A stretch of 64,000 bases of DNA from Streptomyces sp. NBC_00425 (GTDB taxonomy: Bacteria; Actinomycetota; Actinomycetes; Streptomycetales; Streptomycetaceae): assembly GCF_036030735.1 (NCBI RefSeq), contig NZ_CP107928.1:5456001-5520000 (forward strand), read 5' to 3'. This document shows positions 5,302-45,383 of the stretch, in pieces. The notes under the pieces are model-generated. The model was not told the DNA's origin. It ran no database searches and was given only the letters and a program-made list of their open reading frames with translations. A program made the translations under genes and the position numbers. Within the stretch, counting starts at the first letter, position 1, and the number at the start of each line of letters is the position of its first letter.

Positions 5302-5316
5302 CTGACGTACCGTCAG
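5302..5316. promoter_or_regulatory. Operator CTGACG-TAC-CGTCAG (regulon site 1)
   Basis: Perfect 6+3+6 palindrome, extended to TCTGACG/CGTCAGA, ending four bases before the ATG of the DoxX gene. A -10-like TACCGT lies inside it (5308-5313), seven bases before that ATG. Occupancy should therefore block RNA polymerase. The same site recurs in five other promoter regions of the window. Confidence 0.75.
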
Positions 5317-5320
5317 ATTC

Positions 5321-5773
5321 ATGGATGCGATCTGGCTCGACGGGGCTGAGTGGCTGGCGGTGCTGCGGATCGGGCTCGGGCTGTGGTGGCTGGAGAGCTG
5401 GCGGCACAAGGACAAGAAGGCCTGGTTCGAAGACGGCGCCGGCATCGGCTGGGCGGCGGACGTGGCGGCGAAGCACCGCTGGAACGCCGTCCGCTCCGGG
5501 TTCGCCGTGGTGGTGCAGCCGCGCCCGCGCGTCATGGCGTACGTCGTCGTCTACGCGGAGCTGGCGCTCGGCCTCGGCCTGGTCCTCGGCTTCCTCACCC
5601 CGGTCGCCCTGGCCGCGGGCCTGCTGCTCAACCTGCTCTACCTCGTCCTCATGATCCATGACTGGGCCGAGCAGGGGCAGAACTCCATGATGGCGCTGAT
5701 CTCCGCGGTGGCGCTGGGCGGGATGGCCTGGCAGACGTGGTCACTGGACAGCGCGCTGGGGTGGTTCCGATGA
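5321..5773 (+). CDS. DoxX-like integral membrane protein
   Basis: The 150-residue protein has about four hydrophobic segments: AEWLAVLRIGLGLWWLESW, AYVVVYAELALGLGLVLGFL, ALAAGLLLNLLYLVLMI and a C-terminal helix. The spacing is typical of DoxX/DoxD-type membrane proteins. Members are linked to quinone-coupled oxidation or redox homeostasis, but no catalytic role can be assigned here. The gene has no ribosome-binding site, and TACCGT sits seven bases before the ATG, so a leaderless transcript is likely. Its stop overlaps the start of the DUF35 gene at 5770 (ATGA), so the two are co-translated. Confidence 0.65.
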   Translation: MDAIWLDGAEWLAVLRIGLGLWWLESWRHKDKKAWFEDGAGIGWAADVAAKHRWNAVRSGFAVVVQPRPRVMAYVVVYAELALGLGLVLGFLTPVALAAGLLLNLLYLVLMIHDWAEQGQNSMMALISAVALGGMAWQTWSLDSALGWFR

Positions 5774-6198
5774 GTGCGGCCGCCCGGTACGACCTGCCCG
5801 AGGCCGACGCCTTCACCCGCGTCTACTGGGACGCCGCCGCCGAGGGCCGGCTGCTGATCCGGCGGTGCGGCGCCTGCGCGCGGGCCCACCACTACCCCCG
5901 GGAGTTCTGTCCGTACTGCTGGAGCGAGGACGTCACCTGGGAGGACGCGAGCGGCCGGGCCACCCTCTACACCTGGTCCGTCGTCCACCGAAACGACCTG
6001 CCGCCCTTCGGGGAGCGCACGCCGTACGTCGCCGCGATGGTCGATCTCGCCGAGGGACCGCGCATGTCGACGGAGCTGGTGGGCGGAGCCGAGCCGCGCG
6101 CCGGCATGGCGCTGACGGTGGTCTTCCGGGACGGGGCGCCGGTGTTCCGGGCGGTGGCCGAGGGGCCGCCCGCGTCGGGCCGGACAGGTGTTCAATGA
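5770..6198 (+). CDS. DUF35 zinc-ribbon/OB-fold acyl-CoA-associated protein
   Basis: The 142-residue protein has the two-part DUF35 architecture. An N-terminal rubredoxin-like zinc ribbon has cysteine pairs CGAC and CPYC (about residues 33-52). A C-terminal OB-fold follows (ATLYTWSVVHRNDLPPFGERTPYVAAMVDLAEGPRM). DUF35 proteins partner with thiolase-like lipid-transfer proteins or hydratases. In mycobacterial steroid side-chain degradation, a DUF35 module with Ltp2 forms an aldolase. No thiolase lies in this operon; one at 10523-11695 carries the same operator and is a possible partner. The start overlaps the DoxX stop. Confidence 0.85.
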   Translation: MSAAARYDLPEADAFTRVYWDAAAEGRLLIRRCGACARAHHYPREFCPYCWSEDVTWEDASGRATLYTWSVVHRNDLPPFGERTPYVAAMVDLAEGPRMSTELVGGAEPRAGMALTVVFRDGAPVFRAVAEGPPASGRTGVQ

Positions 6199-6202
6199 GC
6201 GG

Positions 6203-6865: not shown

Positions 6866-6916
6866 CGGCACGGTAATTGGCAGGCGGGGAGCGGCCCTCT
6901 CGCGTCACGATGGGCC

Positions 6917-10522: not shown

Positions 10523-11695
10523 TCACTCCCGGCCCAGCACCACCGTGCCCGAGGAGCAGAACCAGCCACCGGTGCCGCAGGCCACGCCGAGGCGGGGCAG
10601 ACCGCCGTCACGGGCGTGCACCTGGCGCGGGCCGGCCTCGCCCCGCAACTGCCGTACCGCTTCCACCAGCAGGAACAGGCCGCGCATCCCCGGGTGTTGG
10701 GCCGACAGGCCGCCCCCGTCCGTGTTGACCGGCAGGGCGCCGCCCTCGACCCGCAGCCGGCCCTTCTCCACGAACGGGCCGCCCTCGCCCTTCGCGCAGA
10801 AGCCCAGATCCTCGAGGGTCACCAACGTCATGTAGGTGAACGCGTCGTAGATCTGGGCGAAGTCCATCTCGTCCGGGCGCAGTCCGGAGCGGGCGAAGGC
10901 CAGCCGGCCCGAGGTCGCCGCCGGGGAGACCGTGAAGTCCTCCCACTCGGACATCGCGGCGTGCGAGACGTGCTCTCCCGTCCCCAGGATCCACACCGGC
11001 GCCGTGCGGCAGTCCCGCACGTACTCCTCGGCCGCCAGCAGCACCGCCGCGCCCCCGTCGGAGCGGACGCAGCAGTGCAGCTTGGTGAAGGGGTCCGCGA
11101 TCATCGGCCCGGACAGCACCTCGTCGACCGTGACCGGCGTGCGGAACATCGCCTCCGGGTTCAGCGCCGCGTTCGCCCTCGCCTGGACGGCGACCTCCGC
11201 CAGCTGCTCGATCGTGGTGCCGTACTCGTGCATGTGACGGCGGGCGGCCATCGCGTACTTGGCGATCAGGGTGTGCCCGTAGGGCGCCTCGAACTGGAGG
11301 GGGCCGCGTGCCCCGAAGGCGAAGGTGCCGGCGCGGCGGCCCGCCCTGATGTCGGCCCGGGGTGTCGCGCCGTACGCCAGCAGGACGGCGTTCGCGTGGC
11401 CGGCGGCGATCGCGTCGGCGGCGTGCGCCGCCATCACCTCCCAGGTCGCGCCGCCGACCGAGGTGGAGTCGACCCAGGTGGGGCGCAGGCCGAGGTAGTC
11501 GGCCAGCTCGACCGGGGCGAGCGTGCCCAGGCCGGCGGAGGCGAAGCCGTCCACCGTCTCCCGCCCCAGTCCCGCGTCGGCCAGGGCCCGGCGGGATGCC
11601 TGGGCGTGCAGGGCGTGCGGAGTCGCCTCGTCGACCCGGCCGCAGTCGGAGAGCGCGACGCCGACGACGGCCACGTTCCGGGTCCGCACTGTCAT
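10523..11695 (-). CDS. Thiolase-like lipid-transfer protein (SCP-x/Ltp type)
   Basis: The 390-residue protein has the non-condensing thiolase fold of actinobacterial lipid-transfer proteins. Visible blocks are TRNVAVVGVALSDCGR, the helix DEATPHALHAQASRRALADA, RRHMHEYGTTIEQLAEVAV, and the signature AQIYDAFTYMTLVTLEDLGF. The GLSAQHPG and LVEAVRQLRGEA blocks end the fold. Members with DUF35 partners catalyse retro-aldol cleavage of 17-hydroxy steroid-type acyl-CoAs. The ATG at 11695 has GGAAGGTGG upstream. It is divergent from the acyl-CoA dehydrogenase, and the shared region holds one regulon operator. The DUF35 partner could be the protein at 5770. Confidence 0.85.
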   Translation of the reverse strand: MTVRTRNVAVVGVALSDCGRVDEATPHALHAQASRRALADAGLGRETVDGFASAGLGTLAPVELADYLGLRPTWVDSTSVGGATWEVMAAHAADAIAAGHANAVLLAYGATPRADIRAGRRAGTFAFGARGPLQFEAPYGHTLIAKYAMAARRHMHEYGTTIEQLAEVAVQARANAALNPEAMFRTPVTVDEVLSGPMIADPFTKLHCCVRSDGGAAVLLAAEEYVRDCRTAPVWILGTGEHVSHAAMSEWEDFTVSPAATSGRLAFARSGLRPDEMDFAQIYDAFTYMTLVTLEDLGFCAKGEGGPFVEKGRLRVEGGALPVNTDGGGLSAQHPGMRGLFLLVEAVRQLRGEAGPRQVHARDGGLPRLGVACGTGGWFCSSGTVVLGRE

Positions 11696-11739
11696 GAAGG
11701 GCCACCTTCCTCTGGGCAACTCGCTGCCGAGCTCCTAAT

Positions 11740-11754
11740 ATGACGGACCGTCAG
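11740..11754. promoter_or_regulatory. Operator ATGACG-GAC-CGTCAG (regulon site 2)
   Basis: A 6+3+6 palindrome with one mismatch, in the 79-base divergent region between the thiolase and acyl-CoA dehydrogenase genes. A -10-like TAATAT (11736-11741) for the rightward gene overlaps its left edge. Confidence 0.7.
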
Positions 11755-11774
11755 ATCCGTTGGAAGGGGCGGCC

Positions 11775-12989
11775 ATGGACCCCGGCTTCACCGCCGAGCA
11801 GGACGAGATCCGCCGCACACTGCGCGAACTGCTCCACAAACGCTGCGGCCCCGCGGAACTCCGGGCCGCCCTCGACGCCCCGGCCGGGCACGACCCCGCG
11901 CTGTGGGCCGCCCTCGCCGAACAGCTCGGGCTGCCCGGGCTCGCGCTCCCCGAGACGCACGGCGGCGTCGGCTGCCCCCGCACCGACCTCGCCCTCGCCG
12001 CCGAGGAGACCGGCCGGGCCCTCGCGCCGAGCCCGCTGCTCGCCACCTCCGTGCTCGTCGCGCCCCTGATCCTCGCCCTCGGCGCCGACGCCCAGCGGAG
12101 CGGCCTGCTGCCCCGGATCGCCGACGGCACGCTCACCGCCGCGCTCGCCGTGCCCGCGTCCGCCCTCGCCACGGCCCTCGGGCTGACCGGGCCGGGCGGC
12201 GGCGCCTGGTCCGGCGGCGGGCGGGCGGGCGGTGTGCAGGCCCGCCGGTCGGGGGACGGCTGGCGGCTGTACGGGGAGGCCGCGCAGGTGCTCGACGGGC
12301 ACAGCGCCGGACTGCTGCTCGTCGCCGCGCACACCGGGGGCTTCGTACGGTCGCGGACCCTGCTGTTCCTGGTTCCCGGGGACTCCGCCGGCGTCGTCCG
12401 GACGCGGCAGACGGCCCTCGACGCCACCCGGCCGCAGGCACGGGTGCAACTGAGGGACGTGTCGGCCGAGTTGCTGGGAACGGAGGAGGTCGACGTGTCC
12501 GGGGCGCTCGCCGACGCGGGGGACTTCGCCGCCGCCTTCCTCGCCTGCGAGGCCGTCGGGACGGCCGGACGGGCGCTGGAGCGGACCGTCGAGTACCTCG
12601 GGCAGCGGGAGCAGTTCGGGCGGCCGATCGGCTCCTTCCAGGCCGTGCAGCACCGGCTCGCCGATGTGTACGTGCAGGTCCAGGCGGCCCGCTCCGCCGC
12701 GTACTACGCCGCCTGGGCGGCCGGCGGGGACGGCGGCGACGGGCGTGGGTCCGGCCCACGGGAGCGGGTCGGCGGGCTCGCGCTCGCCCAGGCGTTGGAG
12801 GCGCTGCGCCGGGCCGCCGCCGAGGGCGTCCAGCTGCACGGCGGCATCGGTTTCACCTGGGAGCACCAGGCGCATCTGTACTTCAAGCGGGCCGCCGGGG
12901 ACGAGCTGCTGTTCGGGCCCGTGCACCGGCTGCGCGCCCACGCGGCGGATCGGGCCGGACTGTTCGCACAGACGGAGGTGACCGTGTGA
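11775..12989 (+). CDS. Acyl-CoA dehydrogenase (FadE-like)
   Basis: The 404-residue protein has the complete acyl-CoA dehydrogenase layout: an N-terminal helical domain (FTAEQDEIRRTLRELLHKRC), a central beta domain, and the C-terminal helical block with the family signature EYLGQREQFGRPIGSFQAVQ and GGIGFTWEHQAHLYFKRA. It catalyses alpha,beta-dehydrogenation of an acyl-CoA using FAD, passing electrons to ETF. The form is that of mycobacterial FadE subunits, many of which act as alpha2-beta2 complexes on steroid CoA esters; a second subunit gene is not seen here. The ATG at 11775 has GGAAGGGG upstream. Its stop overlaps the F420-type nitroreductase gene (GTGA), so they are co-translated. Confidence 0.9.
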   Translation: MDPGFTAEQDEIRRTLRELLHKRCGPAELRAALDAPAGHDPALWAALAEQLGLPGLALPETHGGVGCPRTDLALAAEETGRALAPSPLLATSVLVAPLILALGADAQRSGLLPRIADGTLTAALAVPASALATALGLTGPGGGAWSGGGRAGGVQARRSGDGWRLYGEAAQVLDGHSAGLLLVAAHTGGFVRSRTLLFLVPGDSAGVVRTRQTALDATRPQARVQLRDVSAELLGTEEVDVSGALADAGDFAAAFLACEAVGTAGRALERTVEYLGQREQFGRPIGSFQAVQHRLADVYVQVQAARSAAYYAAWAAGGDGGDGRGSGPRERVGGLALAQALEALRRAAAEGVQLHGGIGFTWEHQAHLYFKRAAGDELLFGPVHRLRAHAADRAGLFAQTEVTV

Positions 12990-13465
12990 TCGGCGTCAGA
13001 GCGGTGCAGAAGGTGTCCTCGACACGGGCGTTCGCGAAGGTGGCCCCGCACGTCATCCCCGCCCTCGACCGGGCCGTGCACCGCCTCACCCGGGGAAAGG
13101 TGCTGCTCAGCGCCCAGTTGCTGCCGGGCGTGATCCTGACGGCCACCGGCGCGCGGAGCGGACGGCCGCGGCGGACGCCGCTCGCCTGCATGCCCGAGAA
13201 GGGCGGCGGGAGCTGGATCCTGGTGGGCTCCAACTTCGGCCGCACCGGGCATCCGGCCTGGACCGCCAACCTGCTCGCCCATCCCGACGCCGAGATCAGC
13301 TGGAAGGGCACGGACATACCGGTCACGGCCGTGCTGCTGGCGGGGGAGGAGCGGGCCGCGGTCTGGAAGACACTGCTGACGTTCTGGCCGCCGTACGCCG
13401 CCTACCAGGAGCGGGTGGAGCGGGAGATCCGGCTGTTCCGGATCACGCCCCGGCCGTCGGCCTGA
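12986..13465 (+). CDS. Deazaflavin (F420)-dependent nitroreductase family protein
   Basis: The 159-residue protein resembles the DDN/Rv3547 family of F420-binding split-barrel reductases. Visible blocks are PGVILTATGARSGRPRRTPL, GGSWILVGSNFGRTGHPAWT, ANLLAHPDAEISWKG and the C-terminal YQERVEREIRLFRITP. Such enzymes bind F420H2 and reduce enones, quinones or nitro compounds. The GTG at 12986 overlaps the acyl-CoA dehydrogenase stop. The last codons run into a 24-base tandem repeat, so the C-terminal PRPSA may have been altered by repeat expansion. F420 would come from FbiC (38224) and other genes elsewhere. Confidence 0.85.
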   Translation: MIGVRAVQKVSSTRAFAKVAPHVIPALDRAVHRLTRGKVLLSAQLLPGVILTATGARSGRPRRTPLACMPEKGGGSWILVGSNFGRTGHPAWTANLLAHPDAEISWKGTDIPVTAVLLAGEERAAVWKTLLTFWPPYAAYQERVEREIRLFRITPRPSA

Positions 13466-14920: not shown

Positions 14921-15568
14921 CTACTTCGTCGGCTTCTTGCCGGTGATGCCGAGGTGTACCAACAGCGCCAGGTTCGGCTTGAGTTCGGCCTGCTTGACGC
15001 CCCAGGTCTGGAAGCCCTTCTGGTGCGAGGCGACCGCCGCGAGCATCGCGACGAGCGCGCCGGCGACCGCGGCCGGGTTCACGTCCTTGTCGACCCTGCC
15101 CTTGGACTGGAGTTCGGCGACCGCGTCCGACAGGGAGTTGTTCACCGAGTTGAGGATCTTCATCCGGAGTTTGTAGAAACGCTTGTCGCCTTCGGCCGCG
15201 CCGAGGTCGACGACCCTGAGGATCGCGTCGTTCTTCCGCCAGAACTCCAGGAAGCCGTCGACGAGTTCCTGGGCCGTCTGCCAGCCCGCCTTGCCGACCC
15301 AGGAGCGCCCCTCGACCAGGGCGGTCAACTCGGCCCCCTCGGCGGCCATTTGCTCGGCGATCTCCAGGACGGCGCCCTCGACGTCGGGGAAGTACTGGTA
15401 GAACGTCGCGGGCGAAGTGCCTGCCTTCCGGGCGACATCGATGACCTTGACGTCCCGGTAGGGAGAGGAGCTGAGCATCTCGCTGAGGCAGTCGAGCAGC
15501 TTCTGCCGCGTCGCCTGCCCGCGTCGACCGGCCACGCGGCCGTCGACGGTACGCACTTGTCCTGTCAT
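14921..15568 (-). CDS. TetR-family regulator; candidate repressor of the CTGACG regulon
   Basis: The 215-residue protein has a TetR helix-turn-helix (RQKLLDCLSEMLSSSPYRDV, VIDVARKAGTSPATFYQYFP, about residues 20-60). A helical ligand-binding domain follows (VDGFLEFWRKNDAILRVVDL, FYKLRMKILNSVNNSLSDAV). TetR proteins of this form commonly sense acyl-CoA or steroid-like ligands in actinobacteria, but I cannot name the ligand. It is monocistronic. The ATG at 15568 lies within CTGTCA-TGC-CGTCAG, a two-mismatch version of the operator found in front of the window's catabolic operons. That fits weak autoregulation and makes it the best local candidate for their repressor. Confidence 0.85.
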   Translation of the reverse strand: MTGQVRTVDGRVAGRRGQATRQKLLDCLSEMLSSSPYRDVKVIDVARKAGTSPATFYQYFPDVEGAVLEIAEQMAAEGAELTALVEGRSWVGKAGWQTAQELVDGFLEFWRKNDAILRVVDLGAAEGDKRFYKLRMKILNSVNNSLSDAVAELQSKGRVDKDVNPAAVAGALVAMLAAVASHQKGFQTWGVKQAELKPNLALLVHLGITGKKPTK

Positions 15569-15576
15569 GCCGTCAG
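15562..15576. promoter_or_regulatory. Degenerate CTGACG-type site over the TetR start codon
   Basis: CTGTCA-TGC-CGTCAG matches the palindrome seen upstream of the catabolic operons at 10 of 12 arm positions, with the right half perfect. The TetR ATG (15566-15568 on the minus strand) is inside it. Confidence 0.4.
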
Positions 15577-15678
15577 CTTACCGAGGGGTGATCGGAGCGC
15601 GATTCGGCCGACTGCAAATGGGGTGCACGGGGGTGCGGAGGCGGCTGTGCCTGGTCTGCGGCTTGCGTGAAGCGCCGT

Positions 15679-19743: not shown

Positions 19744-20565
19744 TCACCGCACCCGGAACCCCGCAGCCCGCCGGCCGGCGAACAGCTCCGCCTGCCGCCC
19801 GGCGGGCAGGTTGCCCAGCGCGATGAGATGCGGGGCCTGCGCGAACGCCGTCGCGCGGGCCGCCTCCCTCGCCGACCACAGCGCCCGCACGGTGCCCTGG
19901 ACGCCGCCCGGCGGATACCCGGCGACGATCGCGGCGCAGGCCACGGCGGCCGGCAGCGCACCTCCTGCCTCGGTGAGTTCGGAGACGAGGCCGACCTCGT
20001 ACGCGCGCCGGGCGGAGATCCGTTCCGCGTTGCCCATCAGCATCATCCGGGCGACCTCCCCGTACGGCATCCGCTGCGCGAGCAGCACCGACTCGTACGC
20101 GCTGACCATCCCGTAGGTGGTGTGCGGGTCGAAGAACGCGGCGTCGGCGCCCGCGACGACGAACTCGCACTCCCCGAGCAGGTAGTAGGCGCCCCCGCAG
20201 GCCATCCCCTCGACCGCGGCGACGACCGGTTTCCACAGGTCGTTCGCCTTGGGGCCGACGGTGAGCAGGGGATCGTCCTGCATGAAGGGCGAGCCGGGCT
20301 GCGGCACCACGGCGTCCCGGTCGATCCCGGTGGAGAACGCCCGGCCGCCGGCCCCGGTGAGGACGACGGCCCGCACGGAGTCGTCGAAGCGCAGCTCGCG
20401 CCAGATCCGCCGGAACGCGTCGGCCGTCTCGAGATCGACGGCGTTCAGTCGTTCCGGCCGGTCGAGGGTGACGACGGCGACCGCGGTCTTCTCGTCGACG
20501 TCCAGCCGCACGCTCACGGGCTCACTCACGGGCTCACTCACGGGCTCGCTCCCGGGCTCGTTCAC
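19744..20565 (-). CDS. Enoyl-CoA hydratase/isomerase family protein
   Basis: The product of about 273 residues has the crotonase fold: VAVVTLDRPERLNAVDLETA, AVVLTGAGGRAFSTGIDRDA with the oxyanion-hole region, VAAVEGMACGGAYYLLGECE, and the ADAAFFDPHTTYGMVSAYES segment. It would hydrate, isomerise or hydrolyse an unsaturated acyl-CoA. Its N-terminus contains SEPV repeats from a 12-base tandem repeat, so the exact GTG start is uncertain; the one chosen overlaps the stop of the upstream DUF35 gene. It is the last gene of the leftward operon thiolase-DUF35-hydratase, under the paired operators at 22180 and 22207. Confidence 0.88.
   Translation of the reverse strand: MNEPGSEPVSEPVSEPVSVRLDVDEKTAVAVVTLDRPERLNAVDLETADAFRRIWRELRFDDSVRAVVLTGAGGRAFSTGIDRDAVVPQPGSPFMQDDPLLTVGPKANDLWKPVVAAVEGMACGGAYYLLGECEFVVAGADAAFFDPHTTYGMVSAYESVLLAQRMPYGEVARMMLMGNAERISARRAYEVGLVSELTEAGGALPAAVACAAIVAGYPPGGVQGTVRALWSAREAARATAFAQAPHLIALGNLPAGRQAELFAGRRAAGFRVR
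20513..20560. repeat. 12-bp tandem repeat coding for SEPV
   Basis: The unit CTCACGGGCTCA occurs at 20513, 20525 and (last base changed) 20537, followed by CTCCCGGGCTCG at 20549. On the minus strand it encodes the EPGSEPVSEPVSEPVS start of the enoyl-CoA hydratase and offers several alternative GTG starts. Confidence 0.9.
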
Positions 20566-22147: not shown

Positions 22148-22179
22148 GCTGCACGCACCTCCGCAATGCGAAATGGCGG

Positions 22180-22194
22180 CTGACAGGCCGTCAG
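22180..22194. promoter_or_regulatory. Operator CTGACA-GGC-CGTCAG (regulon site 3)
   Basis: A 6+3+6 palindrome with one mismatch, 33 bases upstream of the thiolase start on the leftward side of the divergent region. Confidence 0.65.
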
Positions 22195-22206
22195 GCTACC
22201 GCTAAT

Positions 22207-22221: not shown

Positions 22222-22241
22222 CTAATGGCGGGGAGGCCGTG

Positions 22242-28317: not shown

Positions 28318-28492
28318 CAGGGCTCCCCTTAGGCATCCGAAGTACCGAGGCCCAGTTTGCCCTGTCCATGCCGGAACCGTCAGTCGCGCGAGACGCCGAT
28401 CACAGTGCGGCGCACGGGAGTCCACCGGCCGGGCGCGGTCCGCGCGCACACATCCGGCCACCGTCGGCAGGCAGGCGGCGGCCGCAGGCTAG

Positions 28493-28507
28493 CTGACGCA
28501 CCGTCAG
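28493..28507. promoter_or_regulatory. Operator CTGACG-CAC-CGTCAG (regulon site 5)
   Basis: Perfect 6+3+6 palindrome. TACCGT (28516-28521) follows, seven bases before the ATG at 28529, repeating the TACCGT-N7-ATG geometry of site 1. The operator covers the -35 to spacer region of this apparent leaderless promoter. Confidence 0.75.
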
Positions 28508-28528
28508 ATCGGCGCTACCGTGCCTTCC

Positions 28529-29803: not shown

Positions 29804-30720
29804 GCCCCGCCTACGGCATCCAGCTCCCGGTCCAGTCCCAGTCGACGATGTTCGCCGAACCGTGGGAGGCCGACGCCGGCCCCGCCGACCTCGTCGAGAT
29901 CGCCCGGGCCGCCGACCGGTCCGGCTTCGCCTACGTCGCCGCCTGCGACCACGTGGCGATCCCGCGCCGGCTGGCCGAGGCCATGAGCACGGTCTGGTAC
30001 GACCCCGTGGCCACCCTCGCCCACCTCGCGGCCGTGACGACCCGCGTCCGGCTGCTCAGCCACGTCGCCGTCGTCGGCCTGCGCCACCCCCTCGTCACCG
30101 CCAAGCAGTATGCGACCCTCGACCACCTCAGCGGGGGCCGTCTGGTCCTCGGGGTCGGCGCGGGACACGTGCGGGAGGAGTTCGAGGCGCTGGGCGCCGA
30201 CTTCGAGCGGCGCGGCACGGTCCTGGACGAGACGATCGACGCCCTGCGCGCCGCCCTCGGGCCGGACGAGTTCCCCTCCCACCACGGGAAGGCGTACGAC
30301 TTCGAGGGGCTCGGGCAGCGGCCCCGGCCCGCCCAGGACCGTGTCCCCGTGTGGGTCGGCGGCTCCTCCCCGGCCGCCGTGCGCCGCGCCGCGCTCAAGG
30401 GCGACGGCTGGCTGCCCCAGGGCGACCCGCGCGACCGGCTCCCCGCGCAGATCGAGCGGATCGGGCGGCTGCGCGCCGAGGCCGGCGTCGAGGGGCCCTT
30501 CACCGTCGGCGCCATCACCGAGCCCCTGTACGTCGGCACGCCTTCCTGGAACGTCGGCCGCCGCACCCTCACCGGGCCCCCGCAGGCCCTCGCCGCGTCG
30601 CTGCGCGCCTACCCGGCGATGGGCGTCGACCAGATCCAGGTCCGGTTCCGCTGCCGCGACCGATCCGAACTCATCGACCAGATCACCGCGTTCGGGGCCG
30701 AGGTCGCCCCGCACCTGTGA
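29800..30720 (+). CDS. LLM-class (probably F420-dependent) oxidoreductase
   Basis: The 306-residue protein is a luciferase-like TIM barrel: SPAYGIQLPVQSQSTMFAEP, LVEIARAADRSGFAYVAACD, QYATLDHLSGGRLVLGVGAG, and VPVWVGGSSPAAVRRAALKG. In actinobacteria this clade commonly uses F420 for hydride transfer, though FMN cannot be excluded. The start overlaps the amidohydrolase stop (GTGA), so they are co-translated. The next gene is an SDR. Confidence 0.85.
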   Translation: MSPAYGIQLPVQSQSTMFAEPWEADAGPADLVEIARAADRSGFAYVAACDHVAIPRRLAEAMSTVWYDPVATLAHLAAVTTRVRLLSHVAVVGLRHPLVTAKQYATLDHLSGGRLVLGVGAGHVREEFEALGADFERRGTVLDETIDALRAALGPDEFPSHHGKAYDFEGLGQRPRPAQDRVPVWVGGSSPAAVRRAALKGDGWLPQGDPRDRLPAQIERIGRLRAEAGVEGPFTVGAITEPLYVGTPSWNVGRRTLTGPPQALAASLRAYPAMGVDQIQVRFRCRDRSELIDQITAFGAEVAPHL

Positions 30721-30743: not shown

Positions 30744-31520
30744 ATGGGCAAGGGCAAGCTGGACGGTCGCGTCGTCATCGTCACCGGAGCCGCACGCGGC
30801 CAGGGCGAACAGGAGGCGCGGCTCTTCACCGAGGAGGGCGCGCGGGTGGTCGTCGCCGACGTCCTCGAGGAGCAGGGCCGGGCGCTCGCCGAGGAGATCG
30901 GCGCCCTGTTCCTCCCGCTCGACGTGGGCAGCGAGGAGGCCTGGCAGTCGACCGTGCGGGCCGTGCAGCAGGCGTACGGGCGCGTCGACGGCCTGGTCAA
31001 CAATGCCGGCATCCTGCGCTTCAACGCGCTCACCGACACCCCCCTCGACGAGTTCATGCAGGTCGTGAGGGTCAACCAGGTCGGCTGCTTCCTGGGCGTC
31101 AAGACGGTCGCGCCGGTGATGTCCGACGGGGGCACGATCGTCAACACGGCCTCGTACACCGCGGTGACGGGGATGGCGGCGGTGGGCGCGTACGCGGCGA
31201 CCAAGCACGCGATCCTCGGGCTCACCAGGGTCGCCGCGCTGGAGCTCGCGCCGCGTGGCATCCGGGTCAACGCCGTGTGCCCGGGCGCGGTCGACACCGC
31301 GATGTCCAACCCCTCGATGCTGGACCCGGACGCCGACCTGGAGGAGACCGCGAAGGCCATCGACGGGCTGTACCGCAAGCTCGTCCCGCTGGGCCGGATC
31401 GGCCGCCCGGAGGAGGTGGCCCGCCTCGCGCTGTTCCTCACCTCGCAGGACTCCTCCTACATCACCGGGCAGCCGTTCGTGATCGACGGGGGATGGCTCG
31501 CGGGAGTCGCCGTCATCTGA
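30744..31520 (+). CDS. Short-chain dehydrogenase/reductase (hydroxysteroid-dehydrogenase-like)
   Basis: The 258-residue classical SDR shows the cofactor motif TGAARGQG near residue 14, NNAG, and the catalytic Ser-Tyr-Lys set in NTASYTAVTG and GAYAATKHA. It ends in the usual DGGW strand. It would oxidise or reduce a hydroxyl/keto group with NAD(P)H. The pattern is close to 3-alpha/20-beta-hydroxysteroid dehydrogenases, but substrate cannot be fixed by eye. RBS GGAGGA precedes ATG 30744. It is third in the operon starting at 28529. A regulon operator overlaps its stop codon. Confidence 0.88.
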   Translation: MGKGKLDGRVVIVTGAARGQGEQEARLFTEEGARVVVADVLEEQGRALAEEIGALFLPLDVGSEEAWQSTVRAVQQAYGRVDGLVNNAGILRFNALTDTPLDEFMQVVRVNQVGCFLGVKTVAPVMSDGGTIVNTASYTAVTGMAAVGAYAATKHAILGLTRVAALELAPRGIRVNAVCPGAVDTAMSNPSMLDPDADLEETAKAIDGLYRKLVPLGRIGRPEEVARLALFLTSQDSSYITGQPFVIDGGWLAGVAVI

Positions 31521-31531
31521 CTGTACGTCAG
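31517..31531. promoter_or_regulatory. Operator CTGACT-GTA-CGTCAG (regulon site 6)
   Basis: A 6+3+6 palindrome with one mismatch, overlapping the TGA stop of the SDR gene. It is one of a pair with the site at 31578 (61 bases apart), flanking a -35-like TTGACC (31535-31540) with GACAGT 17 bases on. Confidence 0.6.
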
Positions 31532-31577
31532 CTATTGACCCTCCTTGCGGGTGGTGCGACAGTCGGGGCCAGCTGAT

Positions 31578-31592
31578 CTGACGGACCGTCAG
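31578..31592. promoter_or_regulatory. Operator CTGACG-GAC-CGTCAG (regulon site 7)
   Basis: A perfect 6+3+6 palindrome, 42 bases upstream of the LLM gene at 31635. With site 6 it brackets the probable promoter, a geometry suited to cooperative repression. Confidence 0.75.
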
Positions 31593-31634
31593 ACTCAGAT
31601 CCGTGGACTTCAGAACCGGGGACGGTGAACCTCC

Positions 31635-32753
31635 TTGGAATTCGGGCTCTTTGTACAGGGATACGTGGGCAAGCGCGCCGAGACCGATCCGCTCGCCGAG
31701 CACAAGGCGCTGATGGAGGAGACCGAGTACGTCATCCAGGCGGACCGGTCCGGGTTCAAGTACGCCTGGGCGTCCGAGCACCACTTCCTGGAGGAGTACT
31801 CGCACCTCTCCGCCAACGACGTCTTCCTCGGCTACCTCGCCCACGCGACCGACCGCATCCACCTCGGCTCGGGCATCTTCAACCCACTGGCCCAGGTCAA
31901 CCACCCGGTGAAGGTCGCCGAGAAGGTCGCCATGCTCGACCACCTCACCGGCAACCGCTTCGAGTTCGGCTCAGGCCGCGGCGCCGGCTCCCACGAGATC
32001 CTCGGCTTCCTCCCCGGCATCACCGACATGAACCACACGAAGGAGATCTGGGAGGAGGCCATCGCCGAGTTCCCGAAGATGTGGCTCCAGGACGAGTACG
32101 TCGGCTTCCAGGGCAAGCACTGGCAGCTCCCGCCGCGCAAGATCCTGCCGAAGCCGTACGGGAAGTCGCACCCGGCGATGTGGTACGCGGCCGGTTCGCC
32201 GCCCTCGTACGCGATGGCCGCCCGCAAGGGCCTCGGCGTGCTGGGCTTCAGCATCCAGAAGGTCTCCGACATGGAATGGGTGCTGGAGCAGTACAAGACG
32301 GCCGTCGTGAACGCCGAGCCGATCGGCGACTTCGTCAACGACAACGTGATGGTGACGACGACGGCGATCTGCGCGCCCACCCACGACGAGGCGATCCGGA
32401 TCGCCGTCGAGGGCGAACTGCACTACCTGCCCTCGCTGGTGTTCCGCTACCACGACACCTTCCCGCGGCCCGAGGGCTTCCCGGTCTGGCCGGAGACCCT
32501 GCCCGAGTACAACGCCGAGTTCGTCGAACTGCTCATCGAGGAGGAGCTGCTGATCTGCGGCGACCCCGACGAGGTGACGCGGCAGTGCAAGCGGTGGGAA
32601 CAGGCGGGCGCCGACCAGCTGTCCTTCGGGCTGCCGGTGGGGGTGCCGAAGGAGGAGACGCTGCAGACGATCCGGCTGATCGGGGAGCACGTGATCCCGA
32701 AGATCGACACGGATCCCGTGCACCGCACCACACGGTTCCGGCAGGGCGCGTAG
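31635..32753 (+). CDS. LLM-class flavin/F420-dependent oxidoreductase
   Basis: The 372-residue luciferase-like protein starts MEFGLFVQGYVGKRAETDPL. It contains FKYAWASEHHFLEEYSHLSA, AEKVAMLDHLTGNRFEFGSG and MWYAAGSPPSYAMAARKGLG. The TTG at 31635 was chosen because it starts exactly at the conserved N-terminal strand and no in-frame ATG or GTG lies nearby upstream. Many members are monooxygenases or F420-dependent dehydrogenases. It leads a probable operon with an amidohydrolase and an aldehyde dehydrogenase under sites 6 and 7. Confidence 0.85.
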   Translation: MEFGLFVQGYVGKRAETDPLAEHKALMEETEYVIQADRSGFKYAWASEHHFLEEYSHLSANDVFLGYLAHATDRIHLGSGIFNPLAQVNHPVKVAEKVAMLDHLTGNRFEFGSGRGAGSHEILGFLPGITDMNHTKEIWEEAIAEFPKMWLQDEYVGFQGKHWQLPPRKILPKPYGKSHPAMWYAAGSPPSYAMAARKGLGVLGFSIQKVSDMEWVLEQYKTAVVNAEPIGDFVNDNVMVTTTAICAPTHDEAIRIAVEGELHYLPSLVFRYHDTFPRPEGFPVWPETLPEYNAEFVELLIEEELLICGDPDEVTRQCKRWEQAGADQLSFGLPVGVPKEETLQTIRLIGEHVIPKIDTDPVHRTTRFRQGA

Positions 32754-32921: not shown

Positions 32922-34652
32922 ATGCTCGATCACGTCATCAAGGGGGCGACCGTCGTGGACGGGACCGGTGCGCCCGCCTTCACGGCCGACGTCGGCATCC
33001 GGGACGGGCGGATCGCCGTCGTCGGCACGGTCACCGAGGATTCCCGTACCGCCGAGGACGCCGCCGGCCTCGTCCTCGCGCCCGGGTTCGTCGATCCGCA
33101 CACGCACTACGACGCCCAGCTGTTCTGGGACCCGTACGCCACCCCGTCCCTGAACCACGGGGTGACCACGGTCGCGGCCGGGAACTGCGGCTTCACACTC
33201 GCGCCGCTCCACCCGGACCGCCCCGAGGACGCCGACTACACCCGCCGCATGATGTCCAAGGTGGAGGGCATGTCGCTGGTCGCCCTCGAGGAGGGCGCGC
33301 CCTGGAACTGGAGCGGCTTCGGGGAGTACCTGGACGCCCTGGAGGGGCGGATCGCCGTCAACGCCGGCTTCATGGTGGGGCACTGCGCGCTGCGCCGGTA
33401 CGTGATGGGCCCTGACGCGGTGGGCGGGCAGCCCAGCGAGGAGCAACTGCGGCAGATCGTGCAGCTGTTGCACGAGGCGATGGAGGCGGGCGCCTGGGGG
33501 TTCTCCACCACCCAGTCCTCTACCCATTCCGACGGGGACGGACAGCCCGTCGCCTCCCGTCACGCCCGGCCCGAGGAGCTGCTGGCGATGTCCCGTGCGG
33601 TGGGCGAGCACGAGGGCACGCAGATCGAGGCGATCGTGGCGGGCTGTCTCGACCAGTTCAGCGACGCCGAGATCGATCTCTTCGCGGAGATGAGCGCCGC
33701 CGCCGGACGCCCCCTGAACTGGAACGTCCTCACCGTCGACGCGGCCGTGCCGGAGCGGGTGCCCCGGCAGCTCACGGCGAGCGAACGGGCACGCAAGGCG
33801 GGCGGCCGGGTCGTGGCGCTGACCATGCCGATCCTCACGCCGATGAACATGTCCCTGGGCACGTTCTGCGCGCTGAACCTGATCCCGGGCTGGGGGCCGG
33901 TCCTCGCCCTGCCGGTCCCGCAGCGCATCGAGCAGCTGCGCGACCCGGCCGTCCGGGCGGAGCTGCTGCGGAGGGCGGACTCGAAGGAGGCGGGGGTCTT
34001 CCGCCGGCTGACCGACTTCGGGCGGTACGTCATCGGCGACACCTACAGCGAGGCCAACGCGGGCCTCACCGGACGGGTGGTACGGGACGTCGCCGCCGAA
34101 CGCGGCCTGGACCCCTTCGCGTGTCTGGTCGAGATCTGCGCCGCCGACGCGCTGCGCACCGTCCTGTGGCCGATGCCCACGGACAACGACCCCGCCTCGT
34201 GGGCCCTGCGGGCGGAGACCTGGAACCACGAGGACGTCCTGCTCGGCGGGTCCGACGCGGGCGCGCACCTGGACCGCATGTGCGGGGCGCCCTACACCAC
34301 CCGCTTCCTCGGCGACTGTCTGCGCGGCCGGAGGCTGGCCGGCCTGGAGCAGGCGGTGAAGATGCTGACGGACGACCCGGCGAGGCTGTTCGGGCTGCGG
34401 GAACGGGGCCGGATCCAGGAGGGCTTCCATGCCGACCTCGTCCTGTTCGACCCGGAACGGATCGACGCGGGCAAGGCCACCCTGGTGCACGACCTGCCGG
34501 GTGACAGTCCGCGGCTGGACTCCAAGGCCCTCGGGGTGCGCGCGGTGTGGGTGAACGGCGTGGCCGCCATCCGCGACGACGTGGTGACGGGCGCCGTGCC
34601 CGGACGGGTGCTGCGCTCGGGGCGGGACACCAGGACGGTGAGCACGAGGTGA
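32922..34652 (+). CDS. Amidohydrolase, N-acyl-D-amino-acid deacylase-like
   Basis: The 576-residue protein has the composite-domain amidohydrolase layout: an N-terminal beta-sandwich (DHVIKGATVVDGTGAPAF), metal-binding HxH in FVDPHTHYDAQ, TTVAAGNCGFTLAPLHP, and a catalytic Asp in GGSDAGAHLD. C-terminal strands complete the sandwich. This is the D-aminoacylase/N-acyl-D-amino-acid deacylase family, which hydrolyses amides using zinc. In Actinobacteria many members act on unknown amides. It lies 168 bases after the LLM gene and overlaps the aldehyde dehydrogenase start, so a common pathway is likely. Confidence 0.85.
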   Translation: MLDHVIKGATVVDGTGAPAFTADVGIRDGRIAVVGTVTEDSRTAEDAAGLVLAPGFVDPHTHYDAQLFWDPYATPSLNHGVTTVAAGNCGFTLAPLHPDRPEDADYTRRMMSKVEGMSLVALEEGAPWNWSGFGEYLDALEGRIAVNAGFMVGHCALRRYVMGPDAVGGQPSEEQLRQIVQLLHEAMEAGAWGFSTTQSSTHSDGDGQPVASRHARPEELLAMSRAVGEHEGTQIEAIVAGCLDQFSDAEIDLFAEMSAAAGRPLNWNVLTVDAAVPERVPRQLTASERARKAGGRVVALTMPILTPMNMSLGTFCALNLIPGWGPVLALPVPQRIEQLRDPAVRAELLRRADSKEAGVFRRLTDFGRYVIGDTYSEANAGLTGRVVRDVAAERGLDPFACLVEICAADALRTVLWPMPTDNDPASWALRAETWNHEDVLLGGSDAGAHLDRMCGAPYTTRFLGDCLRGRRLAGLEQAVKMLTDDPARLFGLRERGRIQEGFHADLVLFDPERIDAGKATLVHDLPGDSPRLDSKALGVRAVWVNGVAAIRDDVVTGAVPGRVLRSGRDTRTVSTR

Positions 34653-36124
34653 ACGACGCGCAGAGGCCGGTCGCCGGCGCAGCGCAGCGACTGTTCGTCG
34701 GCGGGGACTGGATCGAGCCCGACGGCGGACACTACGAGGTCGTCGACCCGGCGACCGAGGGGACCGTCGGCCTGGCGCCGGAGGCCTCGCCCGATCAGGT
34801 GCGCGAGGCCTGCGCGGCGGCCCGCGAGGCCCTCGGCCCGTGGTCGCGCACCCCGCCGGAGGAGCGGGCGGCCGTGCTGGCCCGGGCGGCCGACCTCATC
34901 CGGGCCCGGCTGCTGCCCTACGCGGGACTCGCGCAGGCGGAGTCCGGCGCCACCACCGGGACGGCGCGCGCGATGCAGGTCGGGGTGGCCGCGGCCCGCT
35001 TCCGCCGGTACGCGCGCGTGGAGCCCTCCGAGTGGCCGATCGCCCCGCAGATCAACGAGGCGGGACCGATGGGGAAGGCGGGCGTGATGGGCGCGCTCGC
35101 CGTGCGCCAGCCGGTCGGCGTCGTCGCCTGCGTCACCTCGTACAACAACCCGTGGGCCAACCCGGCGGGGAAGGTCGCGCCCGCCCTGGCCATGGGCAAC
35201 ACGGTTGTCGTGAAGCCGGCCCCGCAGGACCCCCTGTCCGTCTACCGGATGGCGGAGGCGCTGGAGGAGGCGGGCGTCCCGCGCGGCGTGGTCAACGTCG
35301 TCTCCGGACGCGCGGTCGCGGTCGGCGAGACGGCGGTGTCCTCGCCGGACGTCGACATGGTCAGCTTCACCGGTTCGACGGCCGTCGGACAGCGCATCGC
35401 CGAGGTGTGCGGCCGGGACATGCGGCGTCAGCTGATGGAGCTGGGCGGGAAGGGCGCCGCGATCGTCCTCGACGACGCGGACCTCGCGTCGGCGGTGGCC
35501 GGCATCGGCACCACGTTCTCCTTCTACAGCGGCCAGATCTGCACGGCCCCGACGCGGGTGCTGGCGCAGCGCGGGGTGTACGACCGGCTGGTGGAGCAAC
35601 TCACGCTCTACGCACGCCGGTTGAAGGTCGGTGACCCCAGGGAGGCGGACACGGTGGTCGGCCCGGTGATCTCGGCCGCGCACCGGGACCGGGTGGAGTC
35701 CTACGTCGAACTGGGGCGCAAGGAGGGCGCGGTGGTCGTCGTGGGCGGAGAACGCCCGGCGTCGGAAGGCGGGTTCTACGTCGCCCCGACCGTCCTCGCC
35801 GACTGCACGAACGACATGCGGGCGGTGCGGGAGGAGATCTTCGGCCCCGTCGTGACGGTCGTGCCCTTCGACGACGAGGAGGAGGGCGTCGCCCTCGCCA
35901 ACGACAGCGACTACGGCCTCATCGACTACGTCTGGTCGGCCGACGTGGCCCGCGCCTTCCGCGTGGCCCGCCGGCTGCGGGCTGGCGGCGTCGGCGTCAA
36001 CACCGTGGGCCGCAACATGGAGGCCCCGTTCGGCGGGTTCAAGAAGAGCGGCGTGGGCCGCGATGTCGGCTCGTACGCGCTGCACGCCTACAGCGAGGTG
36101 CAGGCCGTCGTCTGGCCGGGCTGA
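34649..36124 (+). CDS. Aldehyde dehydrogenase family protein
   Basis: The 491-residue NAD(P)-dependent aldehyde dehydrogenase has the catalytic Asn region TSYNNPWANPAGKVAPALAM, cofactor motif FTGSTAVGQRIAEVCG, the Glu in MELGGKGAAIVLDDADL, the nucleophilic Cys in SFYSGQICTAPTRV, and EEIFGPVV. It would oxidise an aldehyde to an acid or CoA ester. The GTG at 34649 overlaps the stop of the amidohydrolase gene (GTGA). It is the last gene of the operon from 31635. Confidence 0.9.
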   Translation: MNDAQRPVAGAAQRLFVGGDWIEPDGGHYEVVDPATEGTVGLAPEASPDQVREACAAAREALGPWSRTPPEERAAVLARAADLIRARLLPYAGLAQAESGATTGTARAMQVGVAAARFRRYARVEPSEWPIAPQINEAGPMGKAGVMGALAVRQPVGVVACVTSYNNPWANPAGKVAPALAMGNTVVVKPAPQDPLSVYRMAEALEEAGVPRGVVNVVSGRAVAVGETAVSSPDVDMVSFTGSTAVGQRIAEVCGRDMRRQLMELGGKGAAIVLDDADLASAVAGIGTTFSFYSGQICTAPTRVLAQRGVYDRLVEQLTLYARRLKVGDPREADTVVGPVISAAHRDRVESYVELGRKEGAVVVVGGERPASEGGFYVAPTVLADCTNDMRAVREEIFGPVVTVVPFDDEEEGVALANDSDYGLIDYVWSADVARAFRVARRLRAGGVGVNTVGRNMEAPFGGFKKSGVGRDVGSYALHAYSEVQAVVWPG

Positions 36125-42824: not shown

Positions 42825-44429
42825 TCAGGCTCCGCCGGAGGGGGCGCCCCCGGACGGGCTGATGAGTTTCCCTTCCACGGTGTCCCGCGGCTCCGGCGCC
42901 GCGGCCGCTCCCGCCGAGCCCCCGTCTCCGTCCCCGTCGGTGTTGATGGTCTCGATGATCGCGAGGCGCTCCGGGGTGTCCTCGGGCTTGACGAACCCGA
43001 TGACGATGTAGAGGACCAGTGACACGGCCAGCGGGATCGACACCTGGTACTGGAGCGGCACGCCGCCGTCGACGTTCCAGTTGATCGGGTAGTTGACCAG
43101 CCAGAAGGCCAGCAGGCCCATCGACCAGCTGCCGAGCGCCGCCGTCGGACCGGAGCGGCGGAACGGGCGCAGCAGACCCAGCATCATCGGGATCGCCATC
43201 GGGCCCATCAGGCCGGCGACCCACTTGATGACGACCGTGATGATGTCCTTGAAGGCGGGGGAGTTGACCTGGGTGGCCGCCGCCATGGACAGGCCGAGGA
43301 ACACGACGGTCGTCACGCGCGCCGCGATCAGTCCCGACCGCTGGTTCCACTCCCTGGCCCTGGCCCAGATGACGGGCGCGCAGTCCCGGGTGAAGACCGC
43401 GGCGATGGCGTTCGCGTCGGAGGAGCACATCGCCATCGTGTGGGAGAAGAAGCCGACGACGACGAGCCCCAGCAGGCCGTGCGGCAACAGCTGTTCGGTC
43501 ATCAGGGCGTAGGAGTCGGAGCCGTCCGGCTTGTTCGACGTCACCAGCAGCGGGGACATCCACATCGGGAAGAACAGCACCAGCGGCCACACCAGCCACA
43601 GCGCGGCCGACAGCCGAGCGGAGCGCTCGGCCTCCTTCGGGCCGGACGTGGCCATGTACCGCTGGGCCTGGTTCAGCATGCCGCCGTTGTACTCGAAGAG
43701 CTTGATGAACAGGAACGCGAGCAGGAACACCGTGCCGTACTGGGCGACGAGCGGCTTGTCGTGGCCCTGGAGCGCCGGCTGGTCCCAGGCGTCCAGGAAC
43801 CCGATGCCCTTGTCGTTCAGCTTCAGCACGACGGCCACGAACATCGCGATGCCGGCCAGCAACTGGATCACGAACTGGCCGAGTTCGGTCAGCGCGTCCG
43901 CCCACAGGCCGCCGATGGTGCAGTAGACGGCGGTGATCGCGCCCGTGATGAGGATGCCCTGGTTGAGGGAGATGCCGGTGAAGACGGACAACAGGGTCGC
44001 GATGGCAGCCCACTTGGCGCCCACGTCCACGATCTTCAGCATCATCCCGGACCAGGCGAGCGCCTGCTGGGTCTTCAGGTCGTACCGGTTCTTCAGGTAC
44101 TCCAGCGGGGACGCCACGTGGAGCCGCGACCGCAGCCGGTTGATGCGCGGCGCGAACAGCTTCGAGCCGATCGCGATGCCCAGTGCGATGGGGAAGGACC
44201 AGGTGACGAAGGAGGTGACGCCGTAGGTGTAGGCGATGCCCGCGTACCCGGTGAACATCACCGCGCTGTAGCCCGACATGTGGTGCGAGATGCCGGACAG
44301 CCACCAGGGCATCTTGCCGCCGGCGGTGAAGAAGTCGCTCACGTCGTCGACGCGTTTGTGCGACCAGACGCCGATCGCGACCATCACGCCGAAATAGCCG
44401 ATGAGCACGGCCCAGTCGAGACCGTTCAT
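42825..44429 (-). CDS. Sodium:solute symporter (SSS family)
   Basis: The 534-residue integral membrane protein has about 13 hydrophobic segments beginning LDWAVLIGYFGVMVAIGVWS. It carries the SSS features DFFTAGGKMPWWLSGISHHM, GYSAVMFTGYAGIAYTYG and CSSDANAIAAVFTRD. The family imports sugars, nucleobases or carboxylates with sodium. The C-terminus is a hydrophilic Asp/Gly/Ala tail. The ATG at 44429 has GGAGGG upstream. No adjacent enzyme indicates the substrate. Confidence 0.9.
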   Translation of the reverse strand: MNGLDWAVLIGYFGVMVAIGVWSHKRVDDVSDFFTAGGKMPWWLSGISHHMSGYSAVMFTGYAGIAYTYGVTSFVTWSFPIALGIAIGSKLFAPRINRLRSRLHVASPLEYLKNRYDLKTQQALAWSGMMLKIVDVGAKWAAIATLLSVFTGISLNQGILITGAITAVYCTIGGLWADALTELGQFVIQLLAGIAMFVAVVLKLNDKGIGFLDAWDQPALQGHDKPLVAQYGTVFLLAFLFIKLFEYNGGMLNQAQRYMATSGPKEAERSARLSAALWLVWPLVLFFPMWMSPLLVTSNKPDGSDSYALMTEQLLPHGLLGLVVVGFFSHTMAMCSSDANAIAAVFTRDCAPVIWARAREWNQRSGLIAARVTTVVFLGLSMAAATQVNSPAFKDIITVVIKWVAGLMGPMAIPMMLGLLRPFRRSGPTAALGSWSMGLLAFWLVNYPINWNVDGGVPLQYQVSIPLAVSLVLYIVIGFVKPEDTPERLAIIETINTDGDGDGGSAGAAAAPEPRDTVEGKLISPSGGAPSGGA

Positions 44430-44555
44430 GTGCGCCCTCCCAGGGATCAGCCCGGCGCTCATCGTGGGCGCTCATGCGTGGACACGACAAGTAACCGCGA
44501 GGTCAAAGGGAGGTAAAAGAATTCGGTATGATGTCTTGTGTTCACTCATATGAAC

Positions 44556-45341
44556 TCAGCGCATCAGCTCCCCGGCGTTGACCAGCAACGACTGCCCGGT
44601 GATCGCCCGTGCCCGGTCCGACGCCAGGAACACCGCCGCATCCGCCACGTCCCCGTCCGTGGCGAGCTCCGGCAACGCCATCCGTCCCGTGAGCCTCCCC
44701 AGCACCTCCTCCTCGGGCACCCCCTCGGTCTGTGCGGTGAACTGCACATAGGCCTGCACCGGCGGCCCCCACATCCATCCCGGCAGCACCGTGTTGACCC
44801 GGATGCGGTGCGGCCCGAGCTCCCGCGCGAGCGAGTACATCGCGCTCGTCAGCGCCCCCTTGGAGGCCGCGTACGCCGCCTGCCGCACCTGTGAGGGCGC
44901 CGCCACGGCCGACTGCGTCCCGATGAAGACGACCGACCCGCCCCGCTCCTTCAGCGCGGGCAGACAGGCCCGCGTCATCCGCAACGTGCCCAGCAGGTTG
45001 ACGTCCAGCACCGACTGCCATGTGGTGAAGTCGGCGTCCTCGACCCCGCCGAAGTACGAGTCCCAGGCCGCCACGTGCACCACCGCGTCGATCCCCCCGA
45101 ACCGCTCCCGCGCCAGTGCGGCCAGCGCCTCGCAGCTCTGCTCGTCGGTGATGTCGGCGGCCCGGTACGCGGTGCGCGCCCCCGCCGGGTCGATCTCGGC
45201 GGCGCTCTTCGCGAGGTTCGCCTCGGTCCGCGCCCCGAGCACGGCGTTCCCGCCGTCCCGCACGACCGCGGCGGCGACCTGGTGACCGAGCCCGGCGCCG
45301 ACCCCCGACACGACCACGGTCCTGCCCTCGAGCGATGACAT
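44556..45341 (-). CDS. Short-chain dehydrogenase/reductase
   Basis: The 261-residue SDR starts SLEGRTVVVSGVGAGLGHQV, with the glycine-rich cofactor loop SGVGAGLG. DIT, then HVAAWDSYFGG follow, with VHVAAW replacing the usual NNAG. The catalytic block GTQSAVAAPSQVRQAAYAAS is followed by KG (Ser, Tyr, Lys). RVNTVLPGWMWGPPVQAYV follows. It is divergent from the 287-residue protein at 45417 across one perfect regulon operator, so both are probably in the same pathway. GGGAGG precedes ATG 45341. Confidence 0.87.
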   Translation of the reverse strand: MSSLEGRTVVVSGVGAGLGHQVAAAVVRDGGNAVLGARTEANLAKSAAEIDPAGARTAYRAADITDEQSCEALAALARERFGGIDAVVHVAAWDSYFGGVEDADFTTWQSVLDVNLLGTLRMTRACLPALKERGGSVVFIGTQSAVAAPSQVRQAAYAASKGALTSAMYSLARELGPHRIRVNTVLPGWMWGPPVQAYVQFTAQTEGVPEEEVLGRLTGRMALPELATDGDVADAAVFLASDRARAITGQSLLVNAGELMR

Positions 45342-45368
45342 AGGGCCTCCCTGCCTCTTCCGCTCTAT

Positions 45369-45383
45369 CTGACGGAGCGTCAG
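45369..45383. promoter_or_regulatory. Operator CTGACG-GAG-CGTCAG (regulon site 8)
   Basis: A perfect 6+3+6 palindrome, 27 bases upstream of the leftward SDR start and 33 bases upstream of the rightward ATG at 45417. One site can control both genes. It is more than 13 kb from the other copies. Confidence 0.75.

Follow-up and report, generated by a model that had tools for sequence, protein, structure and literature searches.

A palindromic site that recurs ahead of catabolic operons in a 64,000-nucleotide (nt) stretch of the Streptomyces sp. NBC_00425 genome (henceforth the window; positions 5456001-5520000 of a 9.8-Mb single-contig genome) can be read, with fair confidence, as the operator of a TetR-repressed regulon for sterol or steroid side-chain catabolism, parallel to that of mycobacterial KstR. 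The likely regulator is a TetR protein encoded in the window itself, at 14921-15568. The case for a single regulon draws on the enrichment of strong copies of the site, their placement, their conservation and footprint in orthologous promoters, their presence before unlinked sterol genes, the co-occurrence of site and TetR across genomes, the operon context of this TetR in Frankiales and a weak site at the TetR gene.

The initial annotation had listed eight copies of the palindrome CTGACG-N3-CGTCAG, four perfect and four with one mismatch, and a mismatch search recovered them all: exact copies lie at 5302, 28493, 31578 and 45369, and one-mismatch copies at 11740, 22180, 22207 and 31517, with a ninth one-mismatch copy, at 4173, scoring poorly (10.1) on the extended matrix. 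The number of copies in the window with up to two mismatches is unremarkable (13 against 8.85 expected, with 13 reached in 9 of 100 shuffles). In contrast, the four exact copies and the nine with at most one mismatch far exceed the means of 200 dinucleotide shuffles (0.03 and 0.61, respectively), and hence the enrichment resides in the strong copies. The flanks lengthen the operator to ATCTGACG-N3-CGTCAGAT, a 19-bp site with 16 specified positions; with at most one mismatch, this 16-position motif occurs five times in the window as opposed to a mean of 0.00 in 200 dinucleotide shuffles. The relevant features of the window are the following (+ and - denote strand):

5300..5318, operator ATCTGACGTACCGTCAGAT, 2 nt before the DoxX start, kept in 26/26
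5321..5773 (+), DoxX-family gene, operon head (Pfam PF07681)
5770..6198 (+), ChsH2-type DUF35 protein (zinc ribbon and OB fold), DoxX operon (Pfam PF01796/PF12172)
10523..11695 (-), thiolase-like/lipid-transfer type gene (thiolase1), operon head (PF22691; NCBIfam subfamily models below cut-off)
11738..11756, operator between thiolase1 (-) and acyl-CoA dehydrogenase (+), kept in 61/62 and 56/58, with footprint
11775..12989 (+), acyl-CoA dehydrogenase (nearest NCBIfam model IpdE2, 198 bits, below the cut-off of 450)
12986..13465 (+), deazaflavin-dependent nitroreductase family (DDN), downstream in the acyl-CoA dehydrogenase operon (TIGR00026 over cut-off)
14921..15568 (-), TetR regulator (TetR_C_38), proposed repressor, probable SCO4421 orthologue by synteny, start at a conserved ATG
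15560..15578, weak operator-like site with two core mismatches, overlapping the TetR start codon
19744..20565 (-), crotonase family, thiolase2 operon (NCBIfam matches below cut-off)
20562..20978 (-), DUF35-like protein (DUF35b), thiolase2 operon (label from sequence reading; no NCBIfam match)
21002..22147 (-), lipid-transfer/thiolase protein (thiolase2), operon head (NF005892, 571 bits over a cut-off of 469)
22178..22196, operator, weaker of a tandem pair
22205..22223, operator, stronger of the tandem pair, in the thiolase2/FadD3 divergent promoter, kept in 39/39 and 38/40
22239..23870 (+), FadD3-family acyl-CoA ligase (NF005801, 794 bits over a cut-off of 657)
28491..28509, operator, 19 nt before the amidohydrolase start and 173 nt from the afsR start
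28529..29803 (+), amidohydrolase (Amidohydro_2), operon head
29788..30720 (+), F420-dependent LLM oxidoreductase (TIGR03619 over cut-off)
30744..31520 (+), SDR oxidoreductase
31515..31533, operator-like site over the SDR stop codon, 101 nt before the LLM start
31576..31594, operator, 40 nt before the LLM start
31635..32753 (+), LLM oxidoreductase, operon head
32922..34652 (+), amidohydrolase (Amidohydro_3)
34649..36124 (+), aldehyde dehydrogenase
44556..45341 (-), SDR oxidoreductase
45367..45385, operator in a divergent promoter between the SDR gene and a gene without assigned family
45405..46280 (+), protein without Pfam or NCBIfam match

As had been claimed, the eight copies occupy promoter regions, 2-101 nt before the nearest start, with that at 31517 also falling on an SDR stop codon. 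A scan with a matrix built from ten sites of the same genome, on which those sites score high by construction, adds six further strong copies within the 20 kb that flank the window on its left, for a total of 14 sites in 65 kb. The 60 kb beyond that left stretch and the 40 kb to the right of the window contain no match above 13.7. For each of the 14 cluster sites, the nearest start predicted by our own codon-usage gene caller is 2-101 nt downstream, with second, divergent starts up to 173 nt away. The left-hand sites precede acyl-CoA synthetase-like, amidohydrolase-like (followed by dehydrogenases) and cyclase-family genes, as well as SDR, flavin-reductase-like and NDP-forming acyl-CoA synthetase genes, these labels coming from inspection of the protein starts and not from a family search. 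The window and its left neighbor (84 kb) hold 14 matrix matches at or above 15; 20 stretches of 20 kb, sampled across the same genome, contain only four at or above 14, of which one falls within a gene and two at gene 3' ends.

A genome-wide mismatch scan yields 24 sites with at most two mismatches to the 16-position motif versus none for the reversed control (87 versus 4 with at most three), some of the copies being inside genes or at gene ends. Eleven of the 24 fall in the cluster (5436439-5501385), and loci of the regulon are also found more than 1 Mb from it. Thus, the idea of dispersed operons stands, while their extent is larger than had been recognized, both to the left of the window and at distant loci. 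The 12-base core was tried as a genome-wide counter and rejected: it returns 161 copies with at most one mismatch versus 26 for the reversed control, and exact cores are present in 40 of 41 relatives, low-site genomes included, some of them inside genes or at gene ends. It therefore overstates the regulon, and the 16-position motif and the matrix were used instead.

Conservation was assessed in 91 loci around the TetR gene (74 from named Streptomyces, six from Frankiales or Frankia and 11 unnamed), counting genes with at least 55% identity to the reference and a full -250..+30 region, in families with at least 15 members. The site precedes the orthologues of DoxX in 26/26 cases, thiolase2 in 39/39, thiolase1 in 61/62, acyl-CoA dehydrogenase in 56/58, NDP-forming acyl-CoA synthetase in 24/25 and the FadD3-like ligase in 38/40. 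Hence, six cluster genes, corresponding to four intergenic regions (thiolase1 and acyl-CoA dehydrogenase share one, as do thiolase2 and FadD3), retain it in 95-100% of loci, in a comparison of the kind suggested in the initial annotation. The neighboring kinase (0/83), PNPOx (0/57) and glyoxalase (0/36) genes have no such site in these loci, nor do the GNAT (0/18) and l19601 (0/24) genes. The claim that copies are absent before afsR and housekeeping genes is sustained for the kinase, PNPOx and glyoxalase and is not strictly correct for afsR, as the copy at 28493 lies in its divergent upstream region. Genes internal to operons lack a site of their own (DUF35b 0/43, crotonase 0/45, DDN 0/64), and DUF35, the second gene of the DoxX operon, has one within 250 nt in 10/40. 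When four promoters were aligned on the site, the 16 specified positions were 87-99% conserved versus 44-80% for the flanks, an alignment anchored on matrix matches and thus favoring the core. Further, in 30 loci examined of 37 matches per protein, the unlinked CYP125 promoter carries the site in 29 and that of cholesterol oxidase in 18. The latter comprise all 14 same-genus orthologues with an identity of 71.9% or more and all four from family f3, where the site is 130-157 nt upstream. These figures bear out the view of the dispersed operons as one regulon, and neither of the two outcomes named in the initial annotation as refuting it was obtained. That annotation had pointed to candidate TetR proteins in general, without selecting one and without a connection to sterols.

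The functional content of this regulon is indicated by the off-cluster promoters that it includes:

L175, before an LLM-like gene (label from sequence)
L177, before a MaoC-like gene (label from sequence; no NCBIfam match)
L178, before a steroid-22-oyl-CoA-synthetase-like gene (600 bits, cut-off 900)
L180, in the divergent promoter of CYP125 and steroid thiolase
L181, before cholesterol oxidase
L183, loosely placed, 296-436 nt from a thiolase-like gene and a DUF35-like fragment (by our gene calls)

The L183 site has an unrelated-looking start at 146 nt on its other side, and a thiolase-DUF35 pair in L059 resembling that of L183 has a site 50 nt upstream. The off-cluster cholesterol oxidase (PDB match E 1.5e-234), CYP125 (E 8e-151) and steroid 3-ketoacyl-CoA thiolase (686 bits, cut-off 515), taken with the FadD3-like ligase and the ChsH2-type DUF35 protein of the cluster, point to sterol side-chain catabolism. 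On the proposed mechanism, a dimer of the SCO4421-type TetR would bind ATCTGACG-N3-CGTCAGAT next to start codons and block the acyl-CoA, thiolase/DUF35, LLM, SDR and amidohydrolase operons, as well as the unlinked genes for cholesterol oxidase and CYP125/thiolase. Sterol side-chain catabolism would be switched on when the TetR is freed by a ligand derived from a sterol or steroid (probably an acid or a CoA thioester). In this scheme the sites with their positions and conservation, the gene families and the co-occurrence are observed, while binding and repression by this TetR, the ligand and the substrate are inferred.

All 19 orthologues of the TetR protein examined match both the helix-turn-helix domain PF00440 (TetR_N) and the C-terminal domain PF19352, and their recognition stretch, AGTS-x-ATFYQYF, is invariant except at x. 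On account of the shared gene neighborhood near afsK (SCO4423), the protein is probably the orthologue of S. coelicolor SCO4421. According to the available part of PMC3878966, which gives no regulon or motif for it, SCO4421 is lowered in a whiA mutant, is expressed in spores and can be deleted without overt phenotype. About 55 bp before the TetR ATG (window 15569-15623) are near-invariant in 82 same-genus loci, and this leader ends in the two-mismatch site over the start codon, likewise conserved in the genus.

Beyond the genus, the site is also seen in Frankia and Frankiales genomes. In genome G026 of family f3, which we take to be Catenulispora-like, genes related to those of the window and of the left-hand stretch have sites in the corresponding promoters, and the TetR gene lies within the cluster. 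LLM genes are preceded by sites both in Frankiales metagenome-assembled genomes (family f16) and in Frankia-type genomes (f20), and orthologues of the 45405..46280 protein in Frankia-family loci L065 and L070 share one site with an LLM gene. Family f16 additionally has sites before FadD3-operon, amidohydrolase and acyl-CoA dehydrogenase genes, and one in the promoter region from which an SDR-TetR operon and echA20-ipdABC-like genes (so named for presumed resemblance to HIP genes) diverge, an arrangement repeated in G098 (f14). In a class-wide sample of 296 genomes, counted outside the own genus and with family f15 removed (see below), the TetR occurs with at least two sites in 10 genomes and with fewer in six, sites without TetR in two (one of them 68% complete) and neither in 245 (Fisher P 1.4e-12, relatedness ignored). 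With f15 kept, the counts are 15, 6, 2 and 245.

Several observations weigh against the regulon as proposed. In terms of its extent, six of the 13 off-cluster sites fit catabolic promoters (L183 loosely), three are inside predicted genes (L173, L174, L182) and the remaining four adjoin other genes or gene ends (L023, L027, L176, L179). With respect to sterols, more distant same-genus relatives of the cholesterol oxidase lack the site (0/3 at 66-69% and 0/9 at 53-57% identity, i.e., 0/12), and the enzyme of this genome scores 110 bits on the sole NCBIfam cholesterol oxidase model matched, versus a cut-off of 850. CYP125 (E <= 1e-150) is missing in 8 of 37 same-genus genomes, namely the low-site G010, G017, G043, G045 and G047 along with G003, G008 and G044, which have 10-19 sites. 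Among the proteins of this genome none reaches the family cut-off for an HsaC-type ring dioxygenase, and ring degradation is thus not supported there. Few Streptomyces are predicted cholesterol degraders, the survey PMC4810484, in the part available, assigning the full pathway to one of more than 50. These last two points, and the many cluster enzymes without a steroid role assigned here (amidohydrolases, LLM, cyclase), would suit the same regulator and operator serving another branched or cyclic isoprenoid or a fatty acid, with CYP125 and cholesterol oxidase as side members. Such a substrate is a serious but doubtful prospect: cholesterol oxidase, CYP125, steroid thiolase, the FadD3-like ligase and the ChsH2-type DUF35 protein all share the site, and an ipdA-like gene (60% identity) of the own genome shares its locus with a KstR2 (PDB 4w97, E 1.9e-56).

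As for the regulator, a strong site before the TetR gene itself is found in 0/85 loci, its promoter having the weak site only; autoregulation is frequent among TetR-family repressors, although not universal. Further, the TetR is kept in 73/73 same-genus genomes, including 15 with only 2-7 sites, and in the five such low-site genomes whose TetR loci were inspected (G010, G045, G047, G053 and G059; L052-L056) the catabolic genes beside it are gone, so that it must have another job or be an orphan there. This would be accommodated if operator and regulon were real and the cognate regulator were another protein elsewhere in the genome, the adjacent TetR controlling something else. That alternative appears unlikely in light of the co-occurrence of TetR and site across families, the position of the TetR gene, which in G026 lies within the cluster and in Frankiales belongs to a site-bearing operon, and the suitability of a 19-bp palindrome for a TetR dimer. 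Additionally, the only other TetR-like protein seen on reading the protein starts of the window and its left neighbor (62504-63208), a part of which were also covered by family searches, is outside the cluster.

Family f15 (G099, G121, G138, G153, G169) includes the highest counts of the palindrome (81 with at most two mismatches in G099; 40 with at most one in G169), and half-site pairs spaced by 3 number 17 over 420 kb of G099, versus a mean of 0.73 at other spacings. Of the copies examined (loci L269-L288, L044 and L060-L063), 12/23 are inside genes and nine of the other 11 are within 20 bp of a gene 3' end. Owing to this placement, both a large regulon and a dispersed chromosome-organizing (SlmA-like) protein were dropped as explanations for f15, and the family was removed from the co-occurrence test; its gene-end copies are likely gene-end hairpins. 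That the palindromes in general are terminator-like hairpins and not operators, as the f15 copies and the two of four gene-end matches in the spread own-genome stretches might suggest, is highly improbable, since the cluster sites stand before start codons, many of them between divergent genes, and are conserved there, 31517 alone overlapping a predicted stop codon. For that one copy, a hairpin at the end of the SDR gene (30744-31520) is conceivable.

The proposed TetR regulon may be compared with known steroid-related systems. KstR targets include CYP125, cholesterol oxidase and side-chain thiolase genes, types of genes that the present site precedes and, under the proposed scheme, would control. 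KstR of mycobacteria and rhodococci is a TetR repressor whose short palindrome is found ahead of dispersed genes for lipids and cholesterol, but its operator is TnnAACnnGTTnnA, unlike ATCTGACG-N3-CGTCAGAT, and its possible S. coelicolor counterpart is SCO2319, another locus than SCO4421 (PMC1995591, part available). The KstR box TnnAACnnGTTnnA was found in 0/21 site-bearing promoters, and no KstR-named chain is among the best 60 of 134 PDB matches of the TetR, no direct comparison with Rv3574 being made. KstR2, which is associated with the C/D-ring (HIP) pathway, has the box AAGCAA-N1-2-CTTGCTT, in this form also present in 0/21 of these promoters. The Frankiales TetR, sitting with echA20-ipdABC-like genes, does occupy the position of KstR2. 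KstR2 itself was rejected as the regulator, given that the own ipd locus has a separate KstR2 to which the new TetR has no significant BLASTP match (best E 1.6). The nearest solved structure by sequence is the TetR-family protein EthR, which is distant (profile E 2.5e-11) and has different targets. SRTF1 of Pimelobacter simplex, as described in the available part of PMC7062782, is a steroid-responsive TetR-family regulator with a palindromic site from a different host, the comparison being by description and not by motif letters. The Nocardioides simplex motif Lcin1 (PMC7593942, part available) differs from the operator. The available parts of PMC7062782, PMC9782250 and PMC3599690 mention no such motif, and that of PMC7807495 has no motif letters. 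In keeping with the initial impression of an undescribed site, searches of an open-access library, which excludes subscription papers and preprints, listed no account of this operator or of an SCO4421 regulon.

If the TetR reading is correct, it would supply a testable function for a Streptomyces regulator that is highly conserved and had lacked one, and place many unassigned enzymes (amidohydrolases, F420-type LLM oxidoreductases and DUF35/thiolase pairs) in the same circuit as cholesterol oxidase and CYP125. A sterol ligand, if true, would furnish a new sterol-responsive biosensor part and a route to derepress sterol conversion in Streptomyces, and would suggest more than one origin of steroid regulation within Actinobacteria. 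More speculatively, Streptomyces and several other actinobacterial lineages might have placed sterol side-chain catabolism under an independently evolved SCO4421-type regulator unrelated to KstR. Since SCO4421 is WhiA-dependent and spore-expressed (PMC3878966, part available), this switch might couple sporulation to the sensing of fungal, plant or animal sterols, with the TetR of pathway-less strains keeping a developmental role only.

The own ipd locus has no site of the present type at a score of at least 15. The ipd promoters of four same-genus genomes share a different block, resembling ACCAAACGTTTGTTAGGT (L260:13940-14005, L263:12155-12210, L264:8800-8890 and L265:8930-9000), which adjoins the KstR2 gene in L260. 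This block is probably the local KstR2 box, and differs from what we take to be the mycobacterial KstR2 consensus. Separately, afsR, a global regulator gene, shares with the amidohydrolase operon the divergent region at 28318-28528 of the window in which one operator lies, and catabolism might in this way be linked to antibiotic regulation.

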